Below are positions 36,113 to 50,700 of a stretch of 64,000 bases of DNA, piece by piece. A program made the position numbers and the translations under genes. The DNA is from Candidatus Zixiibacteriota bacterium (GTDB lineage: Bacteria > Zixibacteria > MSB-5A5 > GN15 > FEB-12): NCBI GenBank assembly GCA_034003725.1, contig JAVEYB010000011.1, forward strand, positions 1-64,000, given 5' to 3'. Every line of letters begins with the position of its first letter. The stretch's first letter is position 1. The notes below the pieces were generated by a model. That model ran no database searches. It was not told where the DNA came from and saw only the letters and a program-made list of their open reading frames with translations.

Positions 36113-37627
36113 TCAGAGCCCGTAAATCTCGCCGTACTTGGCTTTCATGTACGACATGAGGGGCTCATGCGAGAGCGGTTTGCCGGTGACTTTTTCGCAC
36201 AGCACGTTGGCCCGGTATCGCTGGCCGTGCCGGTGAATGTTTTTGCGCAACCAGCCGAGCAGTCTGCTGAAATCTCCCCGCCGGAAGTCATCTTCGAGAC
36301 CCGGCATATCGGCTTTCGCCTTCGCGAAGAACTGGGCGGAATACAGATTGCCGAGGGCGTAGGTCGGGAAGTACCCGATCAGTCCCGATGACCAGTGCAC
36401 GTCCTGCAGGCAGCCGTTGGCGTCCTTGTCGACCTCGATACCGAGGTATTCCTTGAACCGCTTGTTCCACTCCCCGTTCATGTCTTTTGGCCTGATCTCG
36501 CGTTTCGTCATGGCGCGTTCCAGTTCGAACCGCAGCATGATGTGCAGGTTGTAGGTGGCTTCGTCGGCCTCAACGCGTATGTACGACGGTTTCACGAAGT
36601 TCACGGCCCCGTAGAAATCGTCGAGCGAAACGTCGGCCAGCGAATCCCTGAAGATCCGTTTGGCCTGCGGCAGGAAGTACTCCCAGAAGGCTTTCGAGCG
36701 TCCCACCTGGTTCTCCCACATCCGCGATTGCGACTCGTGTATACCCAGCGAGCAGGACTCGCCCATCGGGGTACCGAAGTGCTTCTGCTTTTCGAGGCCC
36801 ATCTCGTAGAGGGCGTGGCCGGCCTCATGCATGGTGCCGAACAGGGCGTCGTTCAGGCGGTTGGGATTGTAGCGGGTCAGGATACGGGTGTCGCCGGGGC
36901 CGATCCCGGTACAAAACGGGTGCGTGGTGATATCCAGGCGACCGGCCTGGAAGTCGTACCCCATGGCGGCAGCCACGGACTCTCCGAAGATTCTTTGTTT
37001 GTCGACATCGTAGGCCCGGTGGACGATCGATTCGTCGGGTTTCTTCTTCGCCGATTTGATCGCCCCCACCAGCGGTACGAGCTCCTTGCGGAGCCCGGCA
37101 AAAGCCGACTCCACCTGTGCGACGGTGGCACCCGGCTCGTATCCGTCGAGCAACGCGTTGTACGGCTCTCCCTCATACCCGAATGCCTCGGCCTTCTTCA
37201 GAATCAGATCGAGGACCTTTTCGAGCCAGGGGACGAACATGGCAAAGTCGGATTTCTTCCGGGCTTCGGCCCACACCGGAGTGGCCTGCGCCGTGGTTTT
37301 GGCCAGCGCCTCCACCAGGTCATTGGGCAGTTTGGTCTGTTTATCGTACTCGTGGCGAAGCTCGCGGAGGTTCGCGGCCGCTTCCGACTCGGGGTCTTTG
37401 ACGAGGTCGGAGCTTTCGGCGGTTGCGATCAACTCGCCAATTCTGGGATTAACAAACTGTTCGTGGCACATGCGCGCTATCAAACCGATTTGTTCGGAGC
37501 GGTGCGCCACGCCGTTTTTCGGCATGTAGGTTTCCTGATCCCAGTGTAGAACCGACACGGTCGACGCCAGTGTCGATATCTCTTTGCATTTCCTGAGAAG
37601 CTCGTCGTATGCAGTCTGTGGTGTCAT
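36113..37627 (-). CDS. M32 family metallocarboxypeptidase (Taq carboxypeptidase type), copy 1
   Basis: 504-residue zinc carboxypeptidase with HEAGHALYEMGL (HExxH), LGIHESQSRMWENQVGRS (third ligand and substrate site), IRVEADEATYNLHIMLRFELE and the conserved N-terminal LHWDQETYMP. Cytosolic, no signal peptide. The start at 37627 has GAAGGAGATAG ahead of it. The adjacent gene upstream encodes a clear paralogue of the same length; the pair probably arose by tandem duplication. Confidence 0.95.
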   Translation of the reverse strand: MTPQTAYDELLRKCKEISTLASTVSVLHWDQETYMPKNGVAHRSEQIGLIARMCHEQFVNPRIGELIATAESSDLVKDPESEAAANLRELRHEYDKQTKLPNDLVEALAKTTAQATPVWAEARKKSDFAMFVPWLEKVLDLILKKAEAFGYEGEPYNALLDGYEPGATVAQVESAFAGLRKELVPLVGAIKSAKKKPDESIVHRAYDVDKQRIFGESVAAAMGYDFQAGRLDITTHPFCTGIGPGDTRILTRYNPNRLNDALFGTMHEAGHALYEMGLEKQKHFGTPMGESCSLGIHESQSRMWENQVGRSKAFWEYFLPQAKRIFRDSLADVSLDDFYGAVNFVKPSYIRVEADEATYNLHIMLRFELERAMTKREIRPKDMNGEWNKRFKEYLGIEVDKDANGCLQDVHWSSGLIGYFPTYALGNLYSAQFFAKAKADMPGLEDDFRRGDFSRLLGWLRKNIHRHGQRYRANVLCEKVTGKPLSHEPLMSYMKAKYGEIYGL

Positions 37628-37751
37628 GACTATCTCCTTCGCCCCAGCGGGCGCATCTGCGGACCTGACGTGAGTGTGCAAAGTACGTAAAACGTCCGGG
37701 TTCCGCCAGTATTTCCGGGATTTCCACCCCGGTATGAGCCGTGCCGTGCCG

Positions 37752-39269
37752 TCACCGCGTGATGCCGTAGATCGGTTCGTACTTCGCGTAGAGGTAGTCG
37801 ATCAGCGGCCGGTGCGACAGCGGCTGCCCGGTCACTTCCTTCACCAGTTCGGTCGCGCGGTAGCGGCGTCCCTGCCGGTGGATGTTTTTCCGAAGCCACT
37901 CCAGCAGCCCGGAGAAGTCTCCACGGGCGAAGTCATCCTGCAGGCCGGGCATCGCCTTGTTCGCCGCAGCGTAGAACTGCGCGGCGTAGAGGTTGCCCAG
38001 CGCATAGGTCGGGAAATAGCCCATGTAGCCGGCCGACCAGTGCACATCCTGCAGGCAGCCGTTGGAGTCCCTGTCGACCTCGATACCGAGGTAGTCTTTG
38101 AACCGCTTGTTCCACTCACCCGCGACGTCTTTCGCTTTCAACTCGCCGTGCACCAGAGCGACCTCGAGTTCAAACCGAAGCATGATGTGCAGGTTGTACG
38201 TGGCTTCGTCGGCTTCGACGCGAATATACGACGGGGTCACGTAGTTCATGGCAGCATACATGTCATCGAGCGAGACGTCGCTCATTTCGTCGTGGAAGAC
38301 GCCTTTCGCGATCGGGAAGAAATATTCCCAGAAACCCCGGGAGCGGCCGACCTGGTTTTCCCACATCCGCGACTGCGATTCGTGAATCCCCGATGAGACC
38401 GAGTCTCCCATCGGCGTACCGTAGTGGTCGCGGTCGAGGCCCATGTCGTAGAGGGCGTGGCCGGTTTCGTGCGTCGTGCCGGTGAGTCCTTCGGCGAGAT
38501 CGTCGGGATACCAGCGGGTGCAGATGCGGGTATCGCTGGGGCCGAGTCCGGCGCAGAACGGGTGGGTCGTGATATCGAGCCGACCCGAGTTGAAGTCATA
38601 GCCGATTCGCTGCGAGACCATCTCGGCGAAGATGGCCTGCTTTTTGACGTCGTACGGGCGCTTGATGACGCCGATATCGGGGCGGCGCGGGGCATCCTTG
38701 AGTTTCGCGACTAGCGGGACGAGGTCCTTGCGGAGGCCTTCGAATACTTTCACAACTTCGGCGGTTTTGGCGTGCGGCTCGAAGCCGTCGAGGAGGGCGT
38801 CGTAGCGCTCGCCATCGTAGCCGAGGGCGTCGGCTTTGCGAAGGTTCAACTCGACGTTTTTCTCGAGCCAGGGAGCGAACATGGCGAAGTCGGATTTCTT
38901 GCGGGCCTCCATCCACACCTGCCGCGCTTTGGTGGTGGTGCGGATGATTTCCTCGACCAGTTCGGAGGGCAGTTTGGTTTCGAGGTCGTACATGCGCCGC
39001 CATTCGCGGACGTTGACCGCCTCGACCGAGAGCGGGTTTTTGACGAGCTCGGAGCTTTCGCAGGCCGAGAGCCAGTCGTTGATGCGCGGGTCGGTGTCGC
39101 GTTCGTGGACCATGCGACCGATCAGCGACATCTGTTCCGAGCGATGGTCGACGCCGGCGCCTGGCATGTAGGTATCCTGATCCCATTCGAGGACCGAGTT
39201 GACGGAGGCGAGGGTGGTGTTTTCTTTGAAGTGGTTGATCAGGTTTCTGTACGCGTCTTGGGCGGTCAT
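37752..39269 (-). CDS. M32 family metallocarboxypeptidase, copy 2
   Basis: 505 residues, similar to copy 1 along its whole length. The zinc site is HETGHALYDMGL and the second motif SGIHESQSRMWENQVGRSRGF; LEWDQDTYMPGAGVDHRSEQ opens the enzyme. Both copies keep all metal ligands and so both are likely active, perhaps with different C-terminal residue preference. The gap between the two genes is 124 bases. Confidence 0.95.
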   Translation of the reverse strand: MTAQDAYRNLINHFKENTTLASVNSVLEWDQDTYMPGAGVDHRSEQMSLIGRMVHERDTDPRINDWLSACESSELVKNPLSVEAVNVREWRRMYDLETKLPSELVEEIIRTTTKARQVWMEARKKSDFAMFAPWLEKNVELNLRKADALGYDGERYDALLDGFEPHAKTAEVVKVFEGLRKDLVPLVAKLKDAPRRPDIGVIKRPYDVKKQAIFAEMVSQRIGYDFNSGRLDITTHPFCAGLGPSDTRICTRWYPDDLAEGLTGTTHETGHALYDMGLDRDHYGTPMGDSVSSGIHESQSRMWENQVGRSRGFWEYFFPIAKGVFHDEMSDVSLDDMYAAMNYVTPSYIRVEADEATYNLHIMLRFELEVALVHGELKAKDVAGEWNKRFKDYLGIEVDRDSNGCLQDVHWSAGYMGYFPTYALGNLYAAQFYAAANKAMPGLQDDFARGDFSGLLEWLRKNIHRQGRRYRATELVKEVTGQPLSHRPLIDYLYAKYEPIYGITR

Positions 39270-39736
39270 ATCTTATCCCCTTTGGACACAGTATGTTTCG
39301 TCGTACGGTGGTCTAATAAACGGTAGTACGAGGCGAAACGCAACGGGTTGCGGGTCGGGGACGGAGTTGGACCGCACGGTGGCGCTAGTTTGTCATGCTG
39401 TGGACCTCACAAAAACAAAAAAGTCGTTGTACAAGTGTGTGTGCGAGCCGGTTATCGAGAAATAGGTTCGTTTTGTCATTTTAAGGGGGCCCCCATTTTT
39501 TCTTCTCCCCTTCTGAGGGGACGTAGCGCGCTGACAGGGAGGATTTTGGCGAAACGCGACGGGATGGAAAGCGGTCGATGTTCGGGTGCGATTTCGGCAT
39601 GTCTGGAGGCTCCTTTGTTTACTTCTGTGTACTAAAGGGGCCGGCTCCGTTTTTTCCATCGAGTTGGTGGGGAAAGTGAAGAGGAAGAACTGGAGGCAAA
39701 GCCAGCCATCAGTACAGAGGCACCCTCCAGCAGCTT
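39270..39736. other. intergenic region at the border of the island
   Basis: 467 bases with no convincing gene. Most of it is occupied by the inverted copy of the intergenic repeat also found at 1238-1490. It separates the carboxypeptidase genes from the lower-G+C island. Confidence 0.6.
39400..39690 (-). repeat. intergenic repeat, copy B
   Basis: The reverse complement shares ordered blocks with 1238-1490: ACTTTCCCCACCA-CTCGATGGAAAAAA near 39655-39680, CCGGCCCC, GAAAAAATGGG near 39500, AAAATGACAAAAC near 39475 and CTTGTAC near 39430. The middle differs. It lies at the edge of the 39.7-43.4 kb island as copy A lies beside the RAYT element. Confidence 0.65.
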
Positions 39737-40399
39737 TCATGGTTTGAAGATGAGTTCTTCGGGTTTGCCCGGAACCACCCGGCGCACCTCCAAGACGAAA
39801 TCCAGTATGTCCGATACACCGTATTTGACGGCTACCTCTCCGAGCTGTATCCTCACGGAACCATCTCTTCGGCGTGAGACATGCGGATACTGGAAGAGTG
39901 TACTAAAAGTGGTTGATCCCCTTGGAGTTGGACCGTAGGGAATTGCACCAGAGTTGATCTTCGAAAGGCGGATGCTGTCCTGGTACCTCTCTATTAGCTT
40001 CTGCGAATCCACAACAATGACACAATGCGCTCGCTTCTTATAGGCTCTTCCAGAAAGCAGGCGCTGAAGTCTATCTGCTGACGGCCAGAAGAAGACCATG
40101 CCGTTTAGCAGACGATACCACTCCTGCGGACTCATATCTGTCAGACTCGCAGAGAGCTTCTTCTCGTTGAGAGGCTTCTGGTCGCGAATGACAGCGTAAC
40201 CGAGCTCGGGATGTTCGATTCTGACCGATTCTGGTCGACGATTTGACTCTATAGAGTGGCGTTGGTTCCCTACTATCTCAAACTTGTCCAAAAGCGCAGT
40301 TGTGCTAAGAAGTCCGTACTCGCGAATGTTGTCCCAAGAAGAGAGCTCTGCCATATGGAACAATCGAGGGAACTCTTGCACGAAAGCGTCCACCGTCAT
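39737..40399 (-). CDS. DUF7002-like protein, candidate DarT-like ADP-ribosyltransferase
   Basis: 220 residues. The N-terminus EFPRLFHMAELSSWDNIREYGLLSTTALLDKF has the layout of ART-fold starts (FH...W..I...GLLS) and fits the uncharacterised DUF7002 group. Later come MVFFWPSADRLQRLLSGR, INSGAIPYGPTPRGSTTF, and VRIQLGEVAVKYGVSDIL; the last, with Glu188, resembles the catalytic-Glu segment of DarT (xAEVLV...V...I). These are pattern resemblances only. Start at the ATG at 40399, 7 bases after the upstream gene; a GTG at 40417 overlaps it. Last gene of a three-gene operon with a macro-domain protein, which would fit an ADP-ribosylating toxin. Confidence 0.7.
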   Translation of the reverse strand: MTVDAFVQEFPRLFHMAELSSWDNIREYGLLSTTALLDKFEIVGNQRHSIESNRRPESVRIEHPELGYAVIRDQKPLNEKKLSASLTDMSPQEWYRLLNGMVFFWPSADRLQRLLSGRAYKKRAHCVIVVDSQKLIERYQDSIRLSKINSGAIPYGPTPRGSTTFSTLFQYPHVSRRRDGSVRIQLGEVAVKYGVSDILDFVLEVRRVVPGKPEELIFKP

Positions 40400-40406
40400 T
40401 ACTGGC

Positions 40407-42011
40407 TTACCACGCACGTCTGTCTATGATACTCCTCTCGTGGAATCTGGTGGATATTAGTGTAACTGGCGCACAGGCGACACGCTCAATCTCCTCTATG
40501 AATCGGATGGTATCAGATTTTAGCTGTTCGAATCGCCTTGCCCTTTTGTTCGTACCGGCCAAATAATCGACAAAGGTGAGGGCAATGTCCGTAGGCGCGT
40601 TCAGCGATGCTGCTTTGCGCAAGAGATACCAGTCAAACTCAGCAACGCGCCTCTGCCTCCCAGTAGTTGAGGTGACTTCTGCTTTTTTCAGTTCGTCTTC
40701 AGGAATACCGCTTCTTTCGGCGACAGTTGCCCAGGTAACTTCGCGGCTCATCGGTCCCGAGGTCAGGCCATCCGCAGCCGGGTCCTGAACACGAATTGGG
40801 TAGCTGCGACAAACCATGACGACCTTTCTCACGCGACTGGAAGAGATACCTGATTCAGCCAGACAGCCCGTCACTGTAGTATCGCGAGATGTCACATGAG
40901 GGTATTGCCCGTGAAATAGGCTCAACCCTGTCCCCTGGGTGCCTTCAAGAAAAATACTATCCCCCCTCGCGTAGGCGTCGTCCAGAACCGCGCAGCTCTC
41001 TTTGATGAAAGGTCTCAGAGCCTTCTCGTCTTTGGCCAATTTGACACTCTTGGATCGGCCCATGATTCTCCTAGCCTGAGCAGCGCCTGCTCCCGAAGCT
41101 GTGCTGGCTATGGTATCACGCAGGACCGACTCCTTGCGTATGTCTTGGTTCGTAATCAACATCACCTGTGGATCAATCGACAGTCGGTTCTTGTCGACGT
41201 GGCAATCAGCAATCTCCCTGAGCAACGTTGGAACAAAAACCACTGCTCCCGGACCGATCAACAAACGAGAAGATGGTGAACATCCGGTACCGGACGGGAG
41301 CGAGTGAAACGTATATCTCGGGCTGTACACAGTATGCCCCGCGTTTGGTCCACCGACGCGTATTAGGAGCTGATACTCGGGAGCTAGGTAGTGTGCAATG
41401 TGTCCCTTGCCCTCACTCCCATATTGTCCGCCGACGAGCACGTCTACTGAACGTTGGAAATTTCGACCGTAGAAACCAATGTGGGCTGCGGCCCGTACGA
41501 ACACATCGGCCGGACTACACATGTTCGTGTCAATCACGACGTCTGCATTCTGGGCAAGCTTGCTTATGTTTCGCTCTGTCTTGTTGGCTTGTAGCTGGTC
41601 GTAGTGCCGCACTTCCCGATAACGCGCGGAAGCCCGAGTTTGATACCTCGAAGCGAGGACTTCTTTGGGGGCTGAAAGGTGGATATGTATAACGCGCCTG
41701 CCGTAGGCGTTTCGAATCTCGTCTATTTGTCGCTGGATTCTCACAGAATCCACAACGATAATGCAGCCGTCCGGCGCATTTCTCTCAACCTTCTCCAAAT
41801 CGGCGAGCACCCAATTTACGCCCTTACGTCGGTCGAGCCTATCTCCTAGCTTCTGATACTCCTCACGGACGCGATTAGCCTTAGGAAATCGCTGCCGGAT
41901 TCCTTCGCCCGTGATCACGGGAAACACGTCAAAACGTTCCTTGAGTGACTGCCTTAGACTGGTTTTGCCTGAAGCGATAGGACCCGAAAGCAGCACCACT
42001 TTCTCTACCAT
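40407..42011 (-). CDS. P-loop NMP-kinase-like domain fused to a PurZ-like adenylosuccinate synthetase
   Basis: 534 residues in two domains. Residues 1-185: a nucleotide-kinase-like P-loop fold with LLSGPIASGKTS (10-18), IIVVDSVR and IHIHLSAPKEVLASRY. Residues 188-534: an adenylosuccinate synthetase fold with GGQYGSEGKG (194-203), GGPNAGHT (220-227, catalytic His226), LEGTQGT (355-361), YPHVTSRDTT and TSTTGRQRR (447-455). The Asp of GDEGKG, the base that activates IMP, is Ser199 here, as described for phage PurZ, which acts on dGMP. The C-terminal part is shorter than in housekeeping PurA. Good Shine-Dalgarno (GGGGAG). Middle gene of the operon; clearly not the housekeeping purA. Confidence 0.85.
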   Translation of the reverse strand: MVEKVVLLSGPIASGKTSLRQSLKERFDVFPVITGEGIRQRFPKANRVREEYQKLGDRLDRRKGVNWVLADLEKVERNAPDGCIIVVDSVRIQRQIDEIRNAYGRRVIHIHLSAPKEVLASRYQTRASARYREVRHYDQLQANKTERNISKLAQNADVVIDTNMCSPADVFVRAAAHIGFYGRNFQRSVDVLVGGQYGSEGKGHIAHYLAPEYQLLIRVGGPNAGHTVYSPRYTFHSLPSGTGCSPSSRLLIGPGAVVFVPTLLREIADCHVDKNRLSIDPQVMLITNQDIRKESVLRDTIASTASGAGAAQARRIMGRSKSVKLAKDEKALRPFIKESCAVLDDAYARGDSIFLEGTQGTGLSLFHGQYPHVTSRDTTVTGCLAESGISSSRVRKVVMVCRSYPIRVQDPAADGLTSGPMSREVTWATVAERSGIPEDELKKAEVTSTTGRQRRVAEFDWYLLRKAASLNAPTDIALTFVDYLAGTNKRARRFEQLKSDTIRFIEEIERVACAPVTLISTRFHERSIIDRRAW

Positions 42012-42020
42012 TATCTCCCC

Positions 42021-43379
42021 CTATCCTCCAAATAGACTTCCTTGTGTAGGCTGACGTGGCCGCGTTCTTTCGGGCAAGTCGTAGATTGTTACGGAAATGC
42101 CTCTCTTGCAGAGGGCTTCTTCAACCAGTTCCGAGATGATCTGCCAGTCTCCACCACCTTCACCGCACCCGATTCTCGGCATATGTACGGACGCACTCAA
42201 TTTAAGTGCTGATGCAGACAAGTTATCTAAGCATTTTAGGAGCGCTCCGTATCGGACACGCGTCCGACGTTCCGGGCCATAGCCCTTCTGAGCGATCAAC
42301 TGCGCCACATGGAGTGAATCACTAACCTTCGTCAATCTTGTGTTCCCCAATTGCAGTTCGGACCTGTTTGACATCACCCAGTCTCGAAAAGACGCGTGGA
42401 CATCTGGAAATGTCTGCTGTATTGAGCGACCAAAACCCGCTCCCCAATTGAGTGCCTTATCGTTGACAACGTGAGCGATTACTCGAACACCTTGTCCCCT
42501 CGGCTTGAGTGCATTCCCCACAAGGTAGTTGATACCCCAAGAGGCTTTTGGCCTTTGAGACGGTGAAGAGACGATTCCTACGACTCTTGGGAGAGAGTCT
42601 CCGGGATAAGACGGAATCGCCGTGCACTCCACATGCAAAGTAGGTGCGGACTTCAGCCAGCGTTCGTCTCCTTTCGCCGTATAGCCAATGGCTGTACACT
42701 CTGCAACGATACTACTGGAAGGCAGTTGAAGCCCCTGGGGAATCGATAAAGAGAAGGCCCTCGACGGACGCGAGTAGTCCAAAGCATAACGGTATCCCTT
42801 CTCACTGTGAATTCTCGGCGAGGCACAGAATACAGCACAGGAAGCATGACTTATTCTCGAAACTCTGAGAAGGATCGACTCCATCGACACATCGAACCGA
42901 CGTCGAACATCTAGCAGACTATCGATGGAAGTATCCTTATCCAAGAGATTCCTGAAGCTGCCTACCGGCATAAGTAGTTCCGCAGCTCCGATGTTGCAGA
43001 GCATCTCCAGTTGCCAGTCATCTCCACTCATTTCCTCTTTGTGCAGTCGATTCCTTCGGTGCTCGCGAAAATCAGGGAAGAGAGTATGTGCCAGTTCGTG
43101 CGCGATCGAGTATTTTATTCTCGAAGCGGGTCTATTGGGATTGAATTGAATCTCAGCGCCTTTCTCGCCTAGCGAAATCAAACACGCATCCATGACGTCT
43201 TCGGAAGGTCGCAAGGTAACTCCCAAGATTCCTGCCAACTCAAACGGATCATAGGGTGGTCCAGTCCACCCTTTTTGAATCGCTGTTAGAACAAGTGATC
43301 GTGCCTTGGCCTCTACCAGAGCGCTAGGATCGCCCAACTTGCCAAGTTCCTTCACAGAAGGGTGTGTCCAATGGAACAT
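42021..43379 (-). CDS. ImmA/IrrE-type metallopeptidase fused to TARG1/DarG-like macro domain
   Basis: 452 residues. Residues 22-180: ImmA/IrrE fold with SIAHELAHTLF (zinc motif 91-101) and a helix EMLCNIGAAELLMP carrying the likely third ligand. Residues 285-437: a macro domain of the TARG1/Poa1p/DarG kind with YLVGNALKPRGQGVRVIAHVVNDKALNWGAGFG and MPRIGCGEGGGDW; Asp411 is the candidate catalytic residue. A 100-residue linker joins them. ImmA-type peptidases cleave repressors, and DarG-type macro domains remove ADP-ribose from DNA. First gene of the operon, 9 bases ahead of the PurZ-like gene. Lower G+C than the flanks. Confidence 0.88.
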   Translation of the reverse strand: MFHWTHPSVKELGKLGDPSALVEAKARSLVLTAIQKGWTGPPYDPFELAGILGVTLRPSEDVMDACLISLGEKGAEIQFNPNRPASRIKYSIAHELAHTLFPDFREHRRNRLHKEEMSGDDWQLEMLCNIGAAELLMPVGSFRNLLDKDTSIDSLLDVRRRFDVSMESILLRVSRISHASCAVFCASPRIHSEKGYRYALDYSRPSRAFSLSIPQGLQLPSSSIVAECTAIGYTAKGDERWLKSAPTLHVECTAIPSYPGDSLPRVVGIVSSPSQRPKASWGINYLVGNALKPRGQGVRVIAHVVNDKALNWGAGFGRSIQQTFPDVHASFRDWVMSNRSELQLGNTRLTKVSDSLHVAQLIAQKGYGPERRTRVRYGALLKCLDNLSASALKLSASVHMPRIGCGEGGGDWQIISELVEEALCKRGISVTIYDLPERTRPRQPTQGSLFGG

Positions 43380-43449
43380 AGTTCATTCCCCCGCTTCATT
43401 CTTCCAGACTGACATATATGATACCTATTCGAAATTGTGAAGACAACCT

Positions 43450-43479
43450 AGATAAACTGACTCGATTGACACATGTCAA
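43450..43479 (-). promoter_or_regulatory. promoter of the island operon with palindromic operator
   Basis: Minus-strand TTGACA (43474-43479) and TTTATC (43451-43456), 17-base spacer, about 70 bases before the IrrE-macro gene. The -35 box is one arm of the palindrome TTGACATGTGTCAA (43466-43479), a likely repressor site. Confidence 0.65.
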
Positions 43480-43504
43480 ACACTTCTTTGAGCACTTTCT
43501 CCCC

Positions 43505-43533
43505 TTGCCCCTCCCCTCCGCACGCCCTATATT
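43505..43533 (+). promoter_or_regulatory. promoter of thyX
   Basis: TTGCCC (43505) and TATATT (43528) with a 17-base spacer, 36 bases before the thyX ATG. It diverges from the island promoter 26 bases away. Confidence 0.6.
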
Positions 43534-43569
43534 CTCAGCCACACCAGAAGCACAAAGGAATTACCCCGC

Positions 43570-44439
43570 ATGGCGCATGTGTCTGTCCCCGAAGCGGATG
43601 CCATTCTCGATAAGCAGTTCGACGTCCTCGATCACGGGTTCGTGCGACTGATCGATTACATGGGTTCCGATGAGTCGATCGTCCAGGCCGCACGCGTCTC
43701 CTACGGCAAAGGCACCAAGAAGGTCTCCGAGGACCGGGGATTGATCCGCTATCTCATGCGCCACCACCACACCACGCCGTTCGAGATGGTGGAGTTGAAA
43801 TTTCATGTCAAGCTGCCGATTTTTGTCGCCCGGCAGTGGATCCGTCACCGCACGGCCAACGTCAACGAGTACTCCGGCCGCTATTCCGTCATGAAAGAAG
43901 AATTCTACCTTCCGCCGCCCGACGCGCTCCAATACCAGTCCACGGTGAACAAGCAGGGACGCGAGGAGGAGAAAGAACTGCCCGATGCGGTCAAGGATGC
44001 GTTCCGGGAGCATGCGGAGTCCACGCAGAAGGCTCTGTATGAGCGGTACGTTCAGTTCGTGGACGAGGGTCTCGCACGGGAGCTGGCGCGGATCAATCTT
44101 CCCCTCTCGCTGTACACCGAGTGGTACTGGAAGATCGATCTGCATAACCTCTTTCATTTCCTTCGGTTACGGCTCGATCCACACGCCCAGAAGGAGATCA
44201 GGGCGTATGCGGCGGTGATGGCCGAGATCACGCGTGCGGTGTGTCCGATGGCGTATGAGGCGTTTGAGGACTATGCGCTGAACGCCCTGTACTTCTCCGG
44301 CCCGGAGCTCAGAGTGATCGGTCACCTGCTGGAAAAATTTTCCGACACGGCAGAGACGCTGGTGGAAAAGGGTCTTTCGAAGCGCGAGGCCCGGGAGTTT
44401 TTGTCTAAGTTGGCGGCGATCAGGAAATTAGAATCCTGA
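43570..44439 (+). CDS. thyX: FAD-dependent thymidylate synthase
   Basis: 289-residue flavin-dependent enzyme making dTMP from dUMP with methylene-tetrahydrofolate. It has the ThyX signature RHRTANVNEYSGRY (RHRx7S) after WIRHRT, plus DESIVQAARVSYGKG, RYLMRHHHTTPFEMVELKFHVKLPIFVARQ and NLPLSLYTEWYWKIDLHNLFHFLRLRLDPHAQKEIR. Longer than the Thermotoga enzyme because of an insert around FYLPPPDALQYQSTVNKQGREEEKELPD, common in several phyla. It is high in G+C like the general background, unlike the island next to it. Confidence 0.96.
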   Translation: MAHVSVPEADAILDKQFDVLDHGFVRLIDYMGSDESIVQAARVSYGKGTKKVSEDRGLIRYLMRHHHTTPFEMVELKFHVKLPIFVARQWIRHRTANVNEYSGRYSVMKEEFYLPPPDALQYQSTVNKQGREEEKELPDAVKDAFREHAESTQKALYERYVQFVDEGLARELARINLPLSLYTEWYWKIDLHNLFHFLRLRLDPHAQKEIRAYAAVMAEITRAVCPMAYEAFEDYALNALYFSGPELRVIGHLLEKFSDTAETLVEKGLSKREAREFLSKLAAIRKLES

Positions 44440-44774
44440 TCGAGGTGTAAACAGTCCATAAACAGTCATTCGAAATCGTCATAAGTGACGGTCCTGATTA
44501 CACTTTCGCGATCTTTTCCCTTGACAATTCCGCATCTATCCTCTAATGTGTGATTGTCGGGTTGTCACACCGCCCGGCAGGACGACATTCAAGGTAATTT
44601 TCAGAGGGTAACGCGCCGATGGACGATTGCTCAAGGTTATCCTTCCATTTCATTTCCTATTGTTCGACTGTGCCTCAAGGTACAATCCACACCTGTGCCC
44701 GTTCGTTATTGGCGCATGAACCCTCGTTACCTGCACTGAGGTTTTATCGCACCATTAACTAACGGGGTCGGGAG
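44440..44774. other. intergenic region and leader of the giant secreted protein gene
   Basis: 335 bases. It contains a promoter at 44521-44549 and then a leader of about 220 bases in which CAAGGT occurs three times (near 44591, 44631 and 44676). GGTCGGGAG precedes the start codon. No small gene is convincing. Confidence 0.5.
44521..44549 (+). promoter_or_regulatory. putative promoter of the giant secreted protein gene
   Basis: Perfect TTGACA (44521) and TAATGT (44544) with a 17-base spacer. The -10 box matches consensus at only half its positions. Confidence 0.45.
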
Positions 44775-47700
44775 ATGAAGCAGCTTCGCGTGGGGCGCGC
44801 CATGGCAATGGCGCTCACATTCGCCCTGTGTCTTTCAGCCACCGCTCAGGCCGACGAGTGGTGGGCCGATTCACTCGCTACGTACAAACTCACCAAGGCT
44901 CCACAGGAGCGCTCGCTGCAGTTCCTGCTCGATTCGCTGGGGTACGAGATCGACGTTGACGACGACGAACTCGGGGTAGAGGTTTTGTGCGGTCAGCCGG
45001 GGACGAACACCGCGACCTTGACGCTGGAAGTGGCCGGTTCGGCGGTCTACGCGACATCGGGCTTCTACGAGGCCGGGGACACATCGGTCTTCTACCAGTT
45101 GTTCGGACCGTCCAATGTGCCGGGTGATTCCGTGCAGTTTACGGTTGGTTCGTTCGACGCGGTGGGGTTCTGGATGCGGCCGAATCTGTCGGGCAACAAC
45201 GCGCGGTGGCTCACGGAGCAGGACTTCAACGAAGACGATTTCGACCACGCATGGATATTCGCGACCGGCAATCCCCACGAGTACCTGATCGCGTTCGAGG
45301 ATCTGCCTGACGGCGGCGACGCCGACTACCAGGACCTGGTTATCAAGGTGCGGTTCGCCAACGACGTGCCGTACCTGACGCTTCCGGGCGACACGACGAT
45401 CGTACAATGCGGGAGCGACTCGATTTGTTTTGCGGTCGGCGCGTACGACGACAACTGCCAGGGGGATTCGATCTGGCTGACGATGCTTTCGGGCGACGGT
45501 GTGTTTACGCCCGAAGCGGGGGTGTCGTCGATTTCATCGCAGCACTGTTTTCTGCCGGTCGGCCCCGGCACGTACGAGTTTATTTTCGAGGTGGAAGACA
45601 TCCTTGGTGCGATAGATGTCGACACCCTGACAATCACGGTGGCGGCCGGATCCTCGCCGCTGGTTTCGGTGCCCGACACGACGGTGGACTGGTGCGATCT
45701 GCAGACCATATGTCTTCCGTTGTCGATACTGGATCCCGACTGTGATGTGGTGTCGGTGACGACCAGTCTGGGCAGCTACGGCGGCAACGCCCTGAGTTTC
45801 GATCAGATCATGCGATATACGGAGTTGGGGGCGACGATTACGCAGGTTGGCGGCGGGGCGCCGGGGACGCTTCTGACGGAGTCATCGGATTTCGTGGGGC
45901 CGGTCAACTCGCAGTCGGGGGTGAGTTTCTCGCTGCCGAATTTCGCGTTTGCGACGATCGTCCATTCGACCGGCTCGTTCCCGGTCGGGCCGGGCCTGTA
46001 CAATTCATCGGACAACCTGCTGGGCGCGCCGACCGATTTGACCTTTACGCTTCCGGGCCCGGGCGGTCCGGATGGCGGGGCCGGGGACGGGTCGATTGAC
46101 TTTTCTTCGGGCAACAATGTCACGATTGGATTCGGGCAGGATATCACGTCGTGTAACGGCGCGGAAGTGGATTTCATATTGTTCACCAACACGGCGTCGG
46201 CCGGCAACGGCACGATCCGGTTCCGCGACGGCGGGACGACGGTATACACGTATACCGGGCCGATCCCGGGCGCATCGGCAGGTACCGGCACCGGCGGGTT
46301 GACGATCGATTTGCCGGACGGGGTCACGTTCGACCGGGTGCGGATATCGAACAACAGCGGCAGTTTCGAAGTTGACGCCGTTGCGGCCCGCACCGCGGCA
46401 TCGCCCAGTGCAACGGATATCTGCTTCACACCCGACACGGCGGGCGTCTACGAAGTGATCGTGACGGCCACGGACGCGTGCGGGAATATCGGGCAGGATA
46501 TCGCGTACGTGACGGTGAATCTCAACGAGGCTCCCGTGGCCGATGCGGGGCCCAACCAATCGGTGTTCCAGTGCGCGCCGGCACAGATCTGTTTGCCGGT
46601 CGGTTTTACCGATCCCGACAATAATCTCGAGATTACGGAGCTTGTCCAGGGACCCGGCACGCTGGCCGGCAACCAGATCTGCTTCACCCCCGCTTCGTCG
46701 GGGACGTTCACCTTCGTCATTCGTGCTGTTGATTCGTGCGGGGTGTCGGATCGGGATACGGTTGTCGTTTCCGTGACGCGCAACGCGTCGCCGGTGGCGG
46801 CGCAGCCGGCGGGAGTCAGCCTGTTTTTGTGCGGTCCCCAGCAGGTTTGTCAGACGTTCACCGCAACCGATCCCAACGGCGGTTCGTTGACCTGGACGCT
46901 GCTGAGCGGACCGGGGTCGATCTCCGCAGCGGGAGAGTATTGTTTCACGCCGACGACGGGCGGCGTGTTTGACGCGTCGGCGGTGGTCGCCGACTCATGC
47001 GGCGCTGCCGATACGGTCACGGCGAGTTTTACGATCACGATGAATGCCGCGCCGGTGGCGGACGACCCGACGTCGCCGGTTGATGTCGCGCAGTGCGACC
47101 CGCAGGAAATATGTTACCAGTTTACTGCGACCGACGCCGACGGCGGCCCGCTTGCCTGGACGATGTTGTCGGGGGACGGCGCGCTATCGGCATCGGGCGA
47201 GTGGTGCTTCACGCCGGCCGGCAGCGGGAGCTACACGGCTCAGGCGGTGGTTGCCGATACGTGCGGTGCGGCCGATACGACGACGCTGACGTACGACGTG
47301 ACGGTGAACGAAGCGCCATCGATCGCGCTCGGCCCGGATACGTCGCTGAGCCTCTGCGCGCCGCAGCCGATTTGCCTGTCGTATGTCGTTGACGACGCCC
47401 AGGGAGCGGCGGGGCTGATCGAGGCGATGGTATCGGGTTTTGGGACGCTCGACACAGCGGCGAACCAGATCTGTTTTACCCCGGTGTCGTCCGGAAGCTA
47501 CGAATTCATAGTGAGTGTGACCGACCCGTGTGGGGCAGTTGATCGTGACACTATTGAGGTAAGTGTTGCGTTTGGCGTGAGCGCAGCCATAGGCTGCCCG
47601 ACCGGGTCCATAGATGTGTTTTTGTGCGGACCCGATTCCATCCATTACATGCTCGATATCACACCGGCTTCGGCTGCGGTGACGGTCATGGGTGGCAAGT

Positions 47701-50700
47701 ACGAAAACGACAAGCTCGATATCTATGCGGATACGTCCGGTACTTACATCGTCCAGGTCATCGCCACGGAGGCCTGCGGCGCCGACACGTGTCAGCTGGT
47801 ATTTGAAGTCGAGATCGGCGAGTCGCCGCAGATCACCTGTCCGCCGCAGGCGTCGCAGTTTATCTGTGACGCCGGCGCCAGCGTGTGCGTGCCGGTGGGT
47901 ATCGTGGGAGCCGACACGAATGTGACGGTCAGTCCGATCGGGAGCTACTCCGGCGGGAATGTTTGCTTCACGGCGGATACGTCGGGTCTCTACACGCTCA
48001 CGATGGTGGCGGCGACGCCGTGCGGCAGCGACACGTGTGAGTTGCTGGTCGATGTGTCGGTCAACAGCGCGCCGGTTGCGGTCGACCCGGCCACGCCGGT
48101 CGACACGTTCCTGTGCGCCCCGGACGCCATTTGTTATGATTTCGCGGCGTCCGACGCCGACAGCCAGACCCTGACGTGGGCCAAGCTGTCGGGCGACGGG
48201 TCCGTGAGCGCATCGGGCCAGTGGTGCTTCACGGCCTCGGCCTCGGGCACCTATACGGTGGTGGTGGTCGTAAGCGATCCGTGCGGGGATGCGGATACGA
48301 CCACGCTGACGTACACGGTGACGCTCAATGGCCCGCCGACGGTCACGCTGGGTACGGACAAGTCGCTGGTTGTGTGCGCGGGTCAGCAGGCGTGTTTCCC
48401 GTATACGGTGAGCGACCCCGACAACAACCTGGCGTCGGTCGCACTCACGTCCGGTCCGGGCACGCTCGACGAAATGGCCCAGACCGTGTGCGTGACGCCG
48501 GCGACATCGGGAACGTATCAGTTTGTCATTACCGCTACGGACAGCTGCGGCCTGCAGGATGTCGACACCCTCCGGATAACGATCCAGGTCAATCGTCCGC
48601 CGGTGGCGAATGCGGGTCCGGACCAGACGGTCGGGCAGTGCTCGGTGGGCCAGATTTGTCTGCCGGCGACATGCACTGATCCCGACGGTAATCTGGTGAC
48701 GTGCGAGCTCGTGACCGGGCCCCCGGGGGCCGGTTACGACGGCACCACCATTTGTTTCACACCTACCGGCACCTGGGATTACGAATTTGTACTCAAGGCG
48801 ACGGACGCGTGCGGATCGGTTGATTACGATACAGTCGTAGTCTACTACACGCTTAATTCGGCGCCGGTGGCCGATGCGGGCGCCGACCAGGCGGTGTTCC
48901 AGTGCGCGCCGCAGCAGATATGCTGGCCGGCGGGTTGCAGCGATCCGAACGGGCCGGCCGACCTCGCTGAGTGCAATCTGATCAGCGGTCCCGGCACGTA
49001 TGACGGCGCCAAGATATGCTTCACGCCGTCCGGTACGGGCGTGTACGAGTTCGTACTCGAGGCGGTCGACAACTGCGGGCGGACCGATCGGGACACGGTG
49101 ACGATCGACGTCACGATAAACTCGGCCCCCGTGTGCGAGATTCCCAACGATACAACCATATTCCAGTGCACGCCGACCCAGGTGTGCCTCCCCGCGTTCT
49201 CGACCGATGTCGACGGCAATCTCGATAATTGCCAGGTGAATGTGGGGACGCTGGTCGGTTCCACCTGGTGCTACACACCGTCGTCGAGCCAGACCGTCAC
49301 GGTCACGATGACGTGTGTCGACGAGTGCGGCGCGCAGTGCCAGTCGCAGTTCGCGGTGGAATTTCTGATCAACGGTGATCCGACGATTGCATTCGGCGCC
49401 GACACGAGTCTCTTCCTCTGTTCGATGGAGGAGGTGTGTCTGCCGTACATAGCCGACGATCCCAACGATCCTCGGCCGACGACGGTCACGCTGGTTTCCG
49501 GACCGGGCACGCTTGACGAGATCAACTCGCAGGTGTGTTTCACGCCGTCGGGCGCCGGTGTATTCGAGTTTGTCATTCGTATCGAGGACGAATGCGGCAA
49601 ATTCGATCAGGATACAATAAACGTAACGGCTGGACTCAATTCGACGCCGGTCGCCGATGCCGGGGCCGACCAGACGTTGTTCCTCTGTGATATCGGACAG
49701 CCAATGTGCTGGCCGGTGTCGTGCAGTGACGTCGACGGCAATCTGAGTGATTGCCTGTTCAACGGACCGGGCACGTACGACGGCTCGACAATTTGCTTCA
49801 CCCCCGCCGGTCCCGGGGTGTTTACGTTCACCCTCCGTGCCGAAGATGACTGCGGCGCCGCGATGGTCGATACGGTTGTCGTCAGTGTCGCGGTCAACAG
49901 CGCGCCGGTGGTGACGCTCCCGGATGATTTCCCGGTCTTCCAGTGCACGCCGGAGGAGATCTGCGTGGATTACACGGTTGCGGACGCGGACGGCCTGTCG
50001 CTGATCATCGAGAGCATGTCTTCGGGATACGGCACCATAGACACTTCGGCCAACCAAATCTGCTTTACGCCTGGCGCCGCCGGCGCGTACGAGATTATCG
50101 TGAGTGCGGTTGATTCCTGCGGCGCGGCGGGCGCGGACACCGTGACGGTTACGGTCTCGTTCGGCCAGTTTGCCCTCATAAGTTGTCCGGCTGCTCCTAT
50201 AGACGTATTCCTTTGCGGCCCCGATTCGATCTGCCAGAGCATGAGCATCACGCCGTCCGACGCGAGCGTAACGGTCTCGCAGGGCGTGTACGACGGCGGC
50301 CAGCTGTGCTTCTATGCCGACACGGCGGGCACATACGTGATTGACGTGATAGCCGAGTCCAGCTGCGGCGCGGACACCTGTCAGCTGGTGTTCAATGTCG
50401 ATATCGGCCAGGCGCCGCAGATCGCCTGTCCTGACCCGGTGGTGCGGTTTGTCTGCGACGCCGGATCATCGGTGTGTATCCCGGTCGGCGTCATGGGAGG
50501 GGGCGCGACGGTGACGGTATCGCCGTTTGCCACGTACTCGGGCGGTTCGGTTTGTTTCAACGCGGATACATCGGGTCATTACGAAATCACCATGATTGCC
50601 GCGACCGCATGCGGCAGCGATACCTGCCTGATCGTCGCCGACATCACGTTGAACGGCGCGCCGGTCGCCGACGATCCGGCCGGCCCGGTGGACACGGCGC

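Follow-up and report, generated by a model that had tools for sequence, protein, structure and literature searches.

A 64,000-nucleotide stretch of DNA from Candidatus Zixiibacteriota bacterium (assembly GCA_034003725.1, contig JAVEYB010000011.1, positions 1 to 64,000; hereafter the window) carries a three-gene cluster that looks like an undescribed bacterial conflict system. The conserved core of the cluster is a pair of genes. Gene B encodes a fusion of a P-loop kinase with a PurZ-type adenylosuccinate synthetase (AdSS), and gene C encodes a DUF7002 protein with the predicted fold of DarT, an ADP-ribosyltransferase (ART). Gene A, which encodes a fusion of an IrrE-type peptidase with a macrodomain, is one of two alternative accessory modules. 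We read the cluster as a mobile conflict module that would couple PurZ chemistry to reversible ADP-ribosylation, and give this reading a probability of about 0.4. We infer the activities and, because of the parts, their mobility and their neighbours, a role in defence. The three genes are as follows.

42021 to 43379, minus strand: gene A, 452 amino acids, IrrE/ImmA-type zinc peptidase fused to an ALC1/SCO6735-like macrodomain (open reading frame, domain and homologue searches).
40407 to 42011, minus strand: gene B, 534 amino acids, P-loop kinase fused to a PurZ-type AdSS (open reading frame, domain searches, tree).
39737 to 40417, minus strand: gene C, DUF7002, predicted DarT-fold ADP-ribosyltransferase (open reading frame, Pfam, structure model).

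Gene C encodes 226 amino acids from a GTG and 220 from the ATG at 40399; the latter is the start of its homologues and its likely start. An earlier, sequence-only reading of this DNA described three minus-strand genes separated by 9 and 7 bases. This holds, with 9 bases between A and B and 7 between B and the ATG of C, and counting from the GTG gives an 11-base overlap of B and C. The domain names given there to the three proteins are likewise supported by Pfam and profile matches.

The B-C pair recurs in distant genomes. We compiled 93 distinct DUF7002 loci, consisting of 79 genome loci, 10 plasmid loci, three viral-contig loci, and the window. The genome loci derive from the best 80 of the 119 in the genome collection, and duplicates were dropped (L051, the same as plasmid L011, and L099 and L101, the same as L095 and L096). 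Full-length B is present in 63 of the 93, partial B in three, and four are cut upstream. Judged by record titles, the pairs occur in at least seven phyla: Planctomycetota, Verrucomicrobiota, Acidobacteriota, Myxococcota, Actinomycetota, Chloroflexota, and Pseudomonadota. When the search starts from B, C is adjacent in 16 of 22 loci overall and in all eight on plasmids. Seven of the 297 genomes of one order carry B, and C is adjacent in five of these (seed genome included). C also adjoins full-length B on three of seven viral contigs. The B and C reading frames, taken from their longest starts, overlap or lie no more than 20 bases apart in 55 of 58 pair loci. Because the pair recurs across loci, chance association of the genes is rejected. 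The sequence-only reading had asked whether the trio returns as a unit in unrelated genomes; the genes do co-occur there, but what is conserved is B with C, and A is exchangeable.

The identity of B as a PurZ-type enzyme rests on the following features.

41517 to 42005, minus strand: kinase domain of gene B, residues about 3-165, with the P-loop GPIASGKT (domain and PDB matches, alignment).
40422 to 41453, minus strand: PurZ/AdSS domain of gene B, residues about 187-530 (domain and PDB matches, alignment).
41415 to 41417, minus strand: codon of Ser199 in gene B, aligned with the catalytic Asp13 of PurA (alignment).

Pfam assigns Adenylsucc_synt to B at 8.3e-49, and an N-terminal kinase-like domain matches AAA_18 and AAA_33, both just below cut-off. 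In the PDB, B matches a Pyrococcus-type AdSS (2e-72) and PurZ 6fm1 (1.6e-45), and the kinase part matches AdkA-like 3lw7 (1.4e-8). Ser occupies the place of PurA Asp13 in 66 of 66 full-length B proteins (a set that excludes L103, L104, and L124) and aligns with the Ser of the phiVC8 PurZ structure 6fm1, whereas the host PurA has Asp. The searches that yielded 62 of these proteins did not use the Ser residue. The other four (L097, L098, L100, and L102), like the viral rows of the tree, depend on a viral scan, one of whose two patterns requires GSE; Ser therefore says little in rows that no other search found. The catalytic His is conserved in 66 of 66 and the first Arg of the aspartate-loop Arg-Arg in 66 of 66; the second Arg is conserved in 65 (Lys in one), and so is the P-loop GK, one row being without that part. 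According to the available text of PMC12884076, Ser replaces Asp in all 147 phage PurZ proteins and Asp is 99% conserved in the PurA group; that of PMC8342488 puts the Ser of PurZ beside the 2-amino group of dGMP. In the tree, the 27 B proteins sampled group together in a single clade (100/100) that contains neither the host PurA nor the one archaeal PurA. Rows of Planctomycetota and Verrucomicrobiota are the nearest neighbours of B; the viral rows in the tree are 32 of 46 picked from 80 viral loci. B scores 192.1 bits against the NCBIfam PurZ model NF038379, below its cut-off of 300. B as an ordinary purine biosynthesis enzyme is rejected, because the host encodes its own Asp-type PurA elsewhere and B carries Ser, in agreement with the earlier proposal that B is PurZ-like.

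Related genes occur in other arrangements. In L060, L071, L079, L085, L096, L232, and L233, a separate kinase of about 180-195 amino acids, related to the kinase half of B, stands beside the pair or beside B. L177 (Sinorhizobium medicae plasmid pMl5; 5016-7078) holds a PurZ-like AdSS of the Ser type that stands alone, with an unknown 340-amino-acid gene after it; this AdSS clusters with viral rows in the tree and has a PemK-like toxin gene nearby. L178 (Rhizobium leguminosarum plasmid pCC283b_4; 4372-10626) holds an Asp-type AdSS with folE, purB, queE, queC, IMP dehydrogenase, and a nitrile hydratase subunit, a gene set that looks like a 7-deazapurine nucleoside pathway.

Gene C is assigned its fold by structure prediction. 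Pfam finds DUF7002 at 5.5e-61 and no other match, so that C does not fall in the DarT sequence family PF14487. All 75 members of the C family searched match DUF7002, and the 20 families listed for them do not include DarT. Searched by sequence against the PDB, DUF7002 yields talin-like matches alone, none better than E 0.1, and at E 1 neither PADLOC nor NCBIfam nor PHROG gives a match to C. An AlphaFold2 model of C built from 75 sequences has a pLDDT of 94.8 and a pTM of 0.91. Foldseek ranks NAD+-bound DarT1 (8baq, 5.8e-5) and DarTG (7omu, 1.8e-4) at the top, followed by other ADP-ribosyltransferases. VIA-align gives the same order: Z is 10.6 for 8baq (164 residues, 3.7 A) and 10.1 for 7omu, 8.4-8.6 for other DarT proteins, 7.8 for Tpt1, and 6-7 for other ART toxins. 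The ART fold put forward earlier for this protein is therefore also what the predicted model suggests, with DarT as its best match. H21, R61, N155, G157, R166, and E194 are invariant in 83 of 83 C proteins. DarT1 requires E152, N104, M71, and R52, according to the available text of PMC11543638. In the alignment, Asn155 of C lies two columns from a DarT His that we take to be His119, the residue that coordinates the base in DarT2; DarT1 has the guanine-coordinating Asn104 as its counterpart. Such a position would fit a 2-aminopurine substrate. Four loci with Chloroflexota/Dehalococcoidia titles (L073, L078, L090, and L091) have DUF7002 without the kinase-PurZ gene and with shared neighbours of their own; they may be a second DUF7002 setting.

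Gene A has two recognisable domains.

42858 to 43151, minus strand: Peptidase_M78 (IrrE) domain of gene A, residues 77-174, with HExxH (Pfam, alignment).
42072 to 42530, minus strand: macrodomain of gene A, about residues 284-436, with Gln364 aligned to Gln85 of SCO6735 (profile search, alignment).

Pfam finds Peptidase_M78 at 9.3e-9 and Macro at 0.0031, which is sub-threshold. Against the PDB, the N-terminal half matches IrrE 3dte (2.1e-11) and CapP 7t5t (1.2e-7), and it matches the PADLOC CapP profile at 9.7e-21. The zinc site is conserved among 21 homologues, a set that leaves out L020 with its 259-amino-acid IrrE-like piece (H94 and H98 in 21 of 21, E95 in 20 of 21). A thus shares the HExxH zincin with CapP and IrrE/ImmA but differs from them in its C-terminal macrodomain and in an operon that lacks a helix-turn-helix (HTH) partner. 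No HTH match was found in the three operon proteins; a distant repressor is possible.

The macrodomain of A is closest to Bt_1257 and SCO6735. A profile of the 21 homologues finds 2fg1 at 4.7e-45 and 5e3b at 7.3e-44. The available text of PMC9411070 identifies 5E3B as SCO6735, which reverses the thymidine ADP-ribosylation made by DarT by cleaving thymidine-linked ADP-ribose. Its mechanism is described there as unusual, since Gln85 is essential instead of the TARG1/DarG lysine; mutating Gln85 or Gly128 loses or reduces activity, and Val25 and Asn27 are also named. The counterparts of Gln85 and Gly128 (Gln364 and Gly406 in the window) are conserved in 21 of 21 A proteins, and the place of Val25 holds V in 15, I in three, M in two, and L in one (V304 in the window). 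The catalytic lysine of TARG1 and DarG (Lys80 in DarG) is Gln in all 21. For this reason the DarG-type label that the sequence-only reading gave to the macrodomain is replaced by SCO6735/ALC1-like; what stands of it is that the domain is of the kind that removes ADP-ribose from DNA. Unlike SCO6735 and Bt_1257, the macrodomain of A is fused to a peptidase and shares an operon with an ART-fold protein. In a further phylum sample of 387 genomes, full-length A was confined to the seed genome, and three more genomes matched a single half of it.

Accessory modules were sought only around DUF7002. A precedes the B-C pair in 21 loci, the window included, and pieces of A occur in L020 (259 amino acids, on the other strand) and L046 (cut by the contig end). 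In 33 other loci there is a predicted ATP-grasp protein of 450 amino acids, accompanied in 30 by an HD phosphohydrolase, mostly on the opposite strand. The modules exclude each other: A or a piece of it is found in 22 loci and ATP-grasp in 33, with an overlap of zero, and A is never found with HD either. The model of the 450-amino-acid protein has a pLDDT of 90.2, and a fold search finds ATP-grasp enzymes at 3e-5 with partial cover; its sequence gave no leads against the PDB. The HD family matches the hypothetical protein Atu1052 (2gz4) at 4e-26 and YfbR weakly. At L011 (4555-7089), an 844-amino-acid protein with an adenosine deaminase domain lies upstream of the pair.

In the mechanism we propose, B would act on a guanine-type nucleotide, either GMP or dGMP, and join aspartate to it, while the kinase half of B would sense or phosphorylate nucleotides. 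C, made alongside B from the adjacent or overlapping gene, would use NAD+ to ADP-ribosylate a base, either in nucleic acid or on the nucleotide product of B. Whenever the nucleotide pool is disturbed by a phage or by stress, this would harm or arrest the cell. The macrodomain of A would erase or sense ADP-ribose, and its peptidase would release or shut off the response. The core pair would then be the effector and the accessory module a safety or processing unit, because ATP-grasp and HD replace A in other bacteria. The loci without an eraser favour a small-molecule or B-controlled reaction over C acting on DNA. A more specific form of this mechanism is doubtful as a whole: an immune or toxin system in which the PurZ-type enzyme makes a 2-aminopurine nucleotide and the DarT-fold transferase ADP-ribosylates it to give a toxin or alarm signal, which the macrodomain-protease reads and erases, or which the ATP-grasp/HD module processes in other lineages.

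The most serious competitor, though in our view an unlikely one, is a toxin-antitoxin system like DarTG (DarT1-NADAR, DarT2-DarG). C would ADP-ribosylate DNA, A would be the antitoxin, and B would be a metabolic add-on, for example for nucleotide-pool repair or limiting dGTP. The predicted DarT fold of C speaks for this, as does the macrodomain of A, which belongs to the ALC1-like class that contains DarG and is closest to the protein that reverses the DarT modification. The ART-fold protein and the macrodomain fusion also share an operon in 21 loci. However, C belongs to a separate Pfam family, and A carries an IrrE peptidase and the Gln described above. The commonest partner of C is the kinase-PurZ enzyme, and 41 of 63 B-C loci lack the IrrE-macrodomain protein in clustering (L046 has a cut piece). 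Moreover, loci lacking both modules are awkward for a system in which C would be the toxin and A its antitoxin; there are six of these (L026, L028, L029, L060, L079, and L096). They are awkward for the mechanism proposed here as well.

A modified purine pathway, of the 2-aminoadenine type or a derivative of it, is also improbable as the function of the cluster. B would make and phosphorylate a succino-2-aminopurine nucleotide, HD or MazG-like partners would trim competitors in the manner of DatZ and MazZ, and C would add an NAD+-derived group. The Ser signature is shared with PurZ of Z-genome phages, the succino-2-amino-deoxyadenylate synthase, and B is related to the short archaeal-type AdSS. 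HD or MazG-like hydrolases adjoin in some loci: besides the weakly YfbR-like HD phosphohydrolase in 30, L060 carries a MazG/HisE-type PRA-PH gene that separates B from C, and L079 has a NUDIX gene following C. B also stands without C on four of seven viral contigs, and the PurZ/DatZ/MazZ triad of phage S-2L is a precedent (available text of PMC8342488). In contrast, the operon in the window has neither an HD nor a MazG-like partner, and the closest relative of the HD family is the hypothetical Atu1052. B further differs from PurZ in its fused kinase, its occurrence mostly in bacterial genomes and plasmids, its separate clade, and its score below the PurZ cut-off. The cluster may work like DarTG and like PurZ, but it is assigned to neither because it fails one defining sequence test of each.

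Defence by nucleotide depletion, as in dCTP deaminase and dGTPase systems, is the least probable alternative: the kinase would sense infection and the synthetase drain dGMP or GMP, in line with a match of the kinase part to the PADLOC profile dCTPase (8.1e-8) and weakly to the NCBIfam anti-phage dCTP deaminase (1.4e-4) and with a dGTPase-profile protein near one locus of the PADLOC test set, but it leaves no role for C, the commonest partner. AvcD-type proteins combine an N-terminal P-loop kinase-like domain with a deaminase. B has a related N-terminal domain, but the nucleotide enzyme fused to it is PurZ-like rather than a deaminase.

Several further observations count against the mechanism we prefer. 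The pairing is incomplete: 23 of the 93 DUF7002 loci lack B although at least 1.6 kb upstream is covered, and C is missing from two of the seven B-bearing genomes of the order mentioned above and, within the flanks covered, from four of seven viral contigs (L097, L098, L100, and L103). The viral cases point to a function of B that is independent of C. With six of 22 B loci also without C, the unrelated neighbours that the sequence-only reading regarded as evidence against a module are found in part. In favour of the module, protein distances of B and C correlate across 58 loci (r 0.72), as do those of A and B (0.88, 21 loci), A and C (0.76, 21 loci), and ATP-grasp and B (0.66, 29 loci), with none of 2000 permutations as high in each case, but such correlations partly reflect common ancestry. 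In gene A, the place of SCO6735 Asn27 is Asn in only 15 of 21 proteins (S in four, P in two; N306 in the window). The sequence comparison of C with DarT is weak. A profile comparison of DUF7002 with four DarT rows gave nothing, and hhalign against 29 DarT homologues gave a collinear alignment, in which H21 falls on a DarT His and E194 on the Glu motif of DarT, at P 0.0015 (single pair) and a probability of only 17%. Because this probability is low, we call C a predicted ART fold and not a DarT family member.

The neighbourhood evidence for defence is suggestive only. The loci on rhizobial plasmids adjoin AbiE, SIR2, UvrD/AAA, VapBC, and weakly KwaB-like genes. At 1e-10, 167 PADLOC families were matched in 120 genes beside 20 loci and 60 in 120 control genes, which came from parts of the same contigs no closer than 50 kb; of 23 genomes, 20 entered this comparison. 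Among the matches listed (25 of 167 and 25 of 60), profiles for type I restriction, dGTPase, and PifA occur only beside the loci. These tallies count families rather than proteins and include many overlapping models, and PADLOC profiles are matched in the controls too (e.g., mad3, AriA, HEC-01A, and DndA). The proximity to defence genes that the sequence-only reading wanted checked is judged here by family tallies.

The cluster looks like an insertion or replacement and was apparently acquired, as its composition and a comparison with G001, a genome of the same genus, indicate.

39483 to 43497, no strand: stretch without counterpart in G001, with syntenic flanks (DNA alignment).
43418 to 43446, minus strand: weak promoter-like site TTGTCT-17-TATCAT upstream of gene A (promoter scan, 9/12 match).

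In 500-base windows, G+C is 47-54% in the island, about 56-62% further left, and 59-67% further right; it is 56-58% in the thyX-like gene on the right and 50% in a noncoding window at 44250. DUF7002 is present in the genome of the window and in none of 97 relatives searched. The left and right flanks of G001 align to the window at 75-88% DNA identity, and the thyX-like gene is shared at 89% protein identity. At the place of the island, G001 has 1.5 kb of other DNA with a reading frame of 267 amino acids. The position may be a variable site, because G001 has a different gene there. These data bear out the low-G+C island and support the transfer proposed from sequence. No convincing terminal repeats were found at the island ends, and an Rfam scan of window positions 38000-46000 gave no leads. 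A single promoter for the trio, also proposed, has the site upstream of A in its favour; the evidence is weak because there are five such sites in the scanned region and a mean of 2.6 in shuffles.

Judged by the translations, the right neighbour of the island, divergent from A, is presumably the thyX-like gene, and a tandem pair of genes for presumably M32-like carboxypeptidases lies on the left. The tandem paralogous carboxypeptidase genes (window 36113-39269) cross-match at about 74-75% DNA identity between the window and G001. Window 44775-53678 encodes a repeat protein of 2967 amino acids that is predicted to be secreted and, on inspection by eye, seems to have a dockerin and a sorting tail. 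The 267-amino-acid gene of G001 (L220, 7821-8624) encodes a predicted secreted protein with a dockerin-like start.

No description of this gene set was found in the literature searched, with preprints and most subscription papers lying outside the search, and the titles and abstract beginnings among the matches listed for related literature leave it undescribed, as had been supposed. In the same literature, no paper was found on DUF7002, none joining adenylosuccinate synthetase with macro domain, kinase, and anti-phage, and none joining it with ADP-ribosyl and phage defense. The word adenylosuccinate is absent from the main text of PMC9503650 and PMC7159879.

PurZ chemistry is known as a phage trait, in 2-aminoadenine DNA. 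A cellular, kinase-fused PurZ-type enzyme whose gene usually adjoins that of a DarT-fold protein, on plasmids as well as across many phyla, would link nucleotide-pool chemistry to ADP-ribosylation, which have so far been separate branches of bacterial conflict biology. For Pfam DUF7002 and for an IrrE-macrodomain fusion, the analysis also offers a tentative assignment of fold and function.

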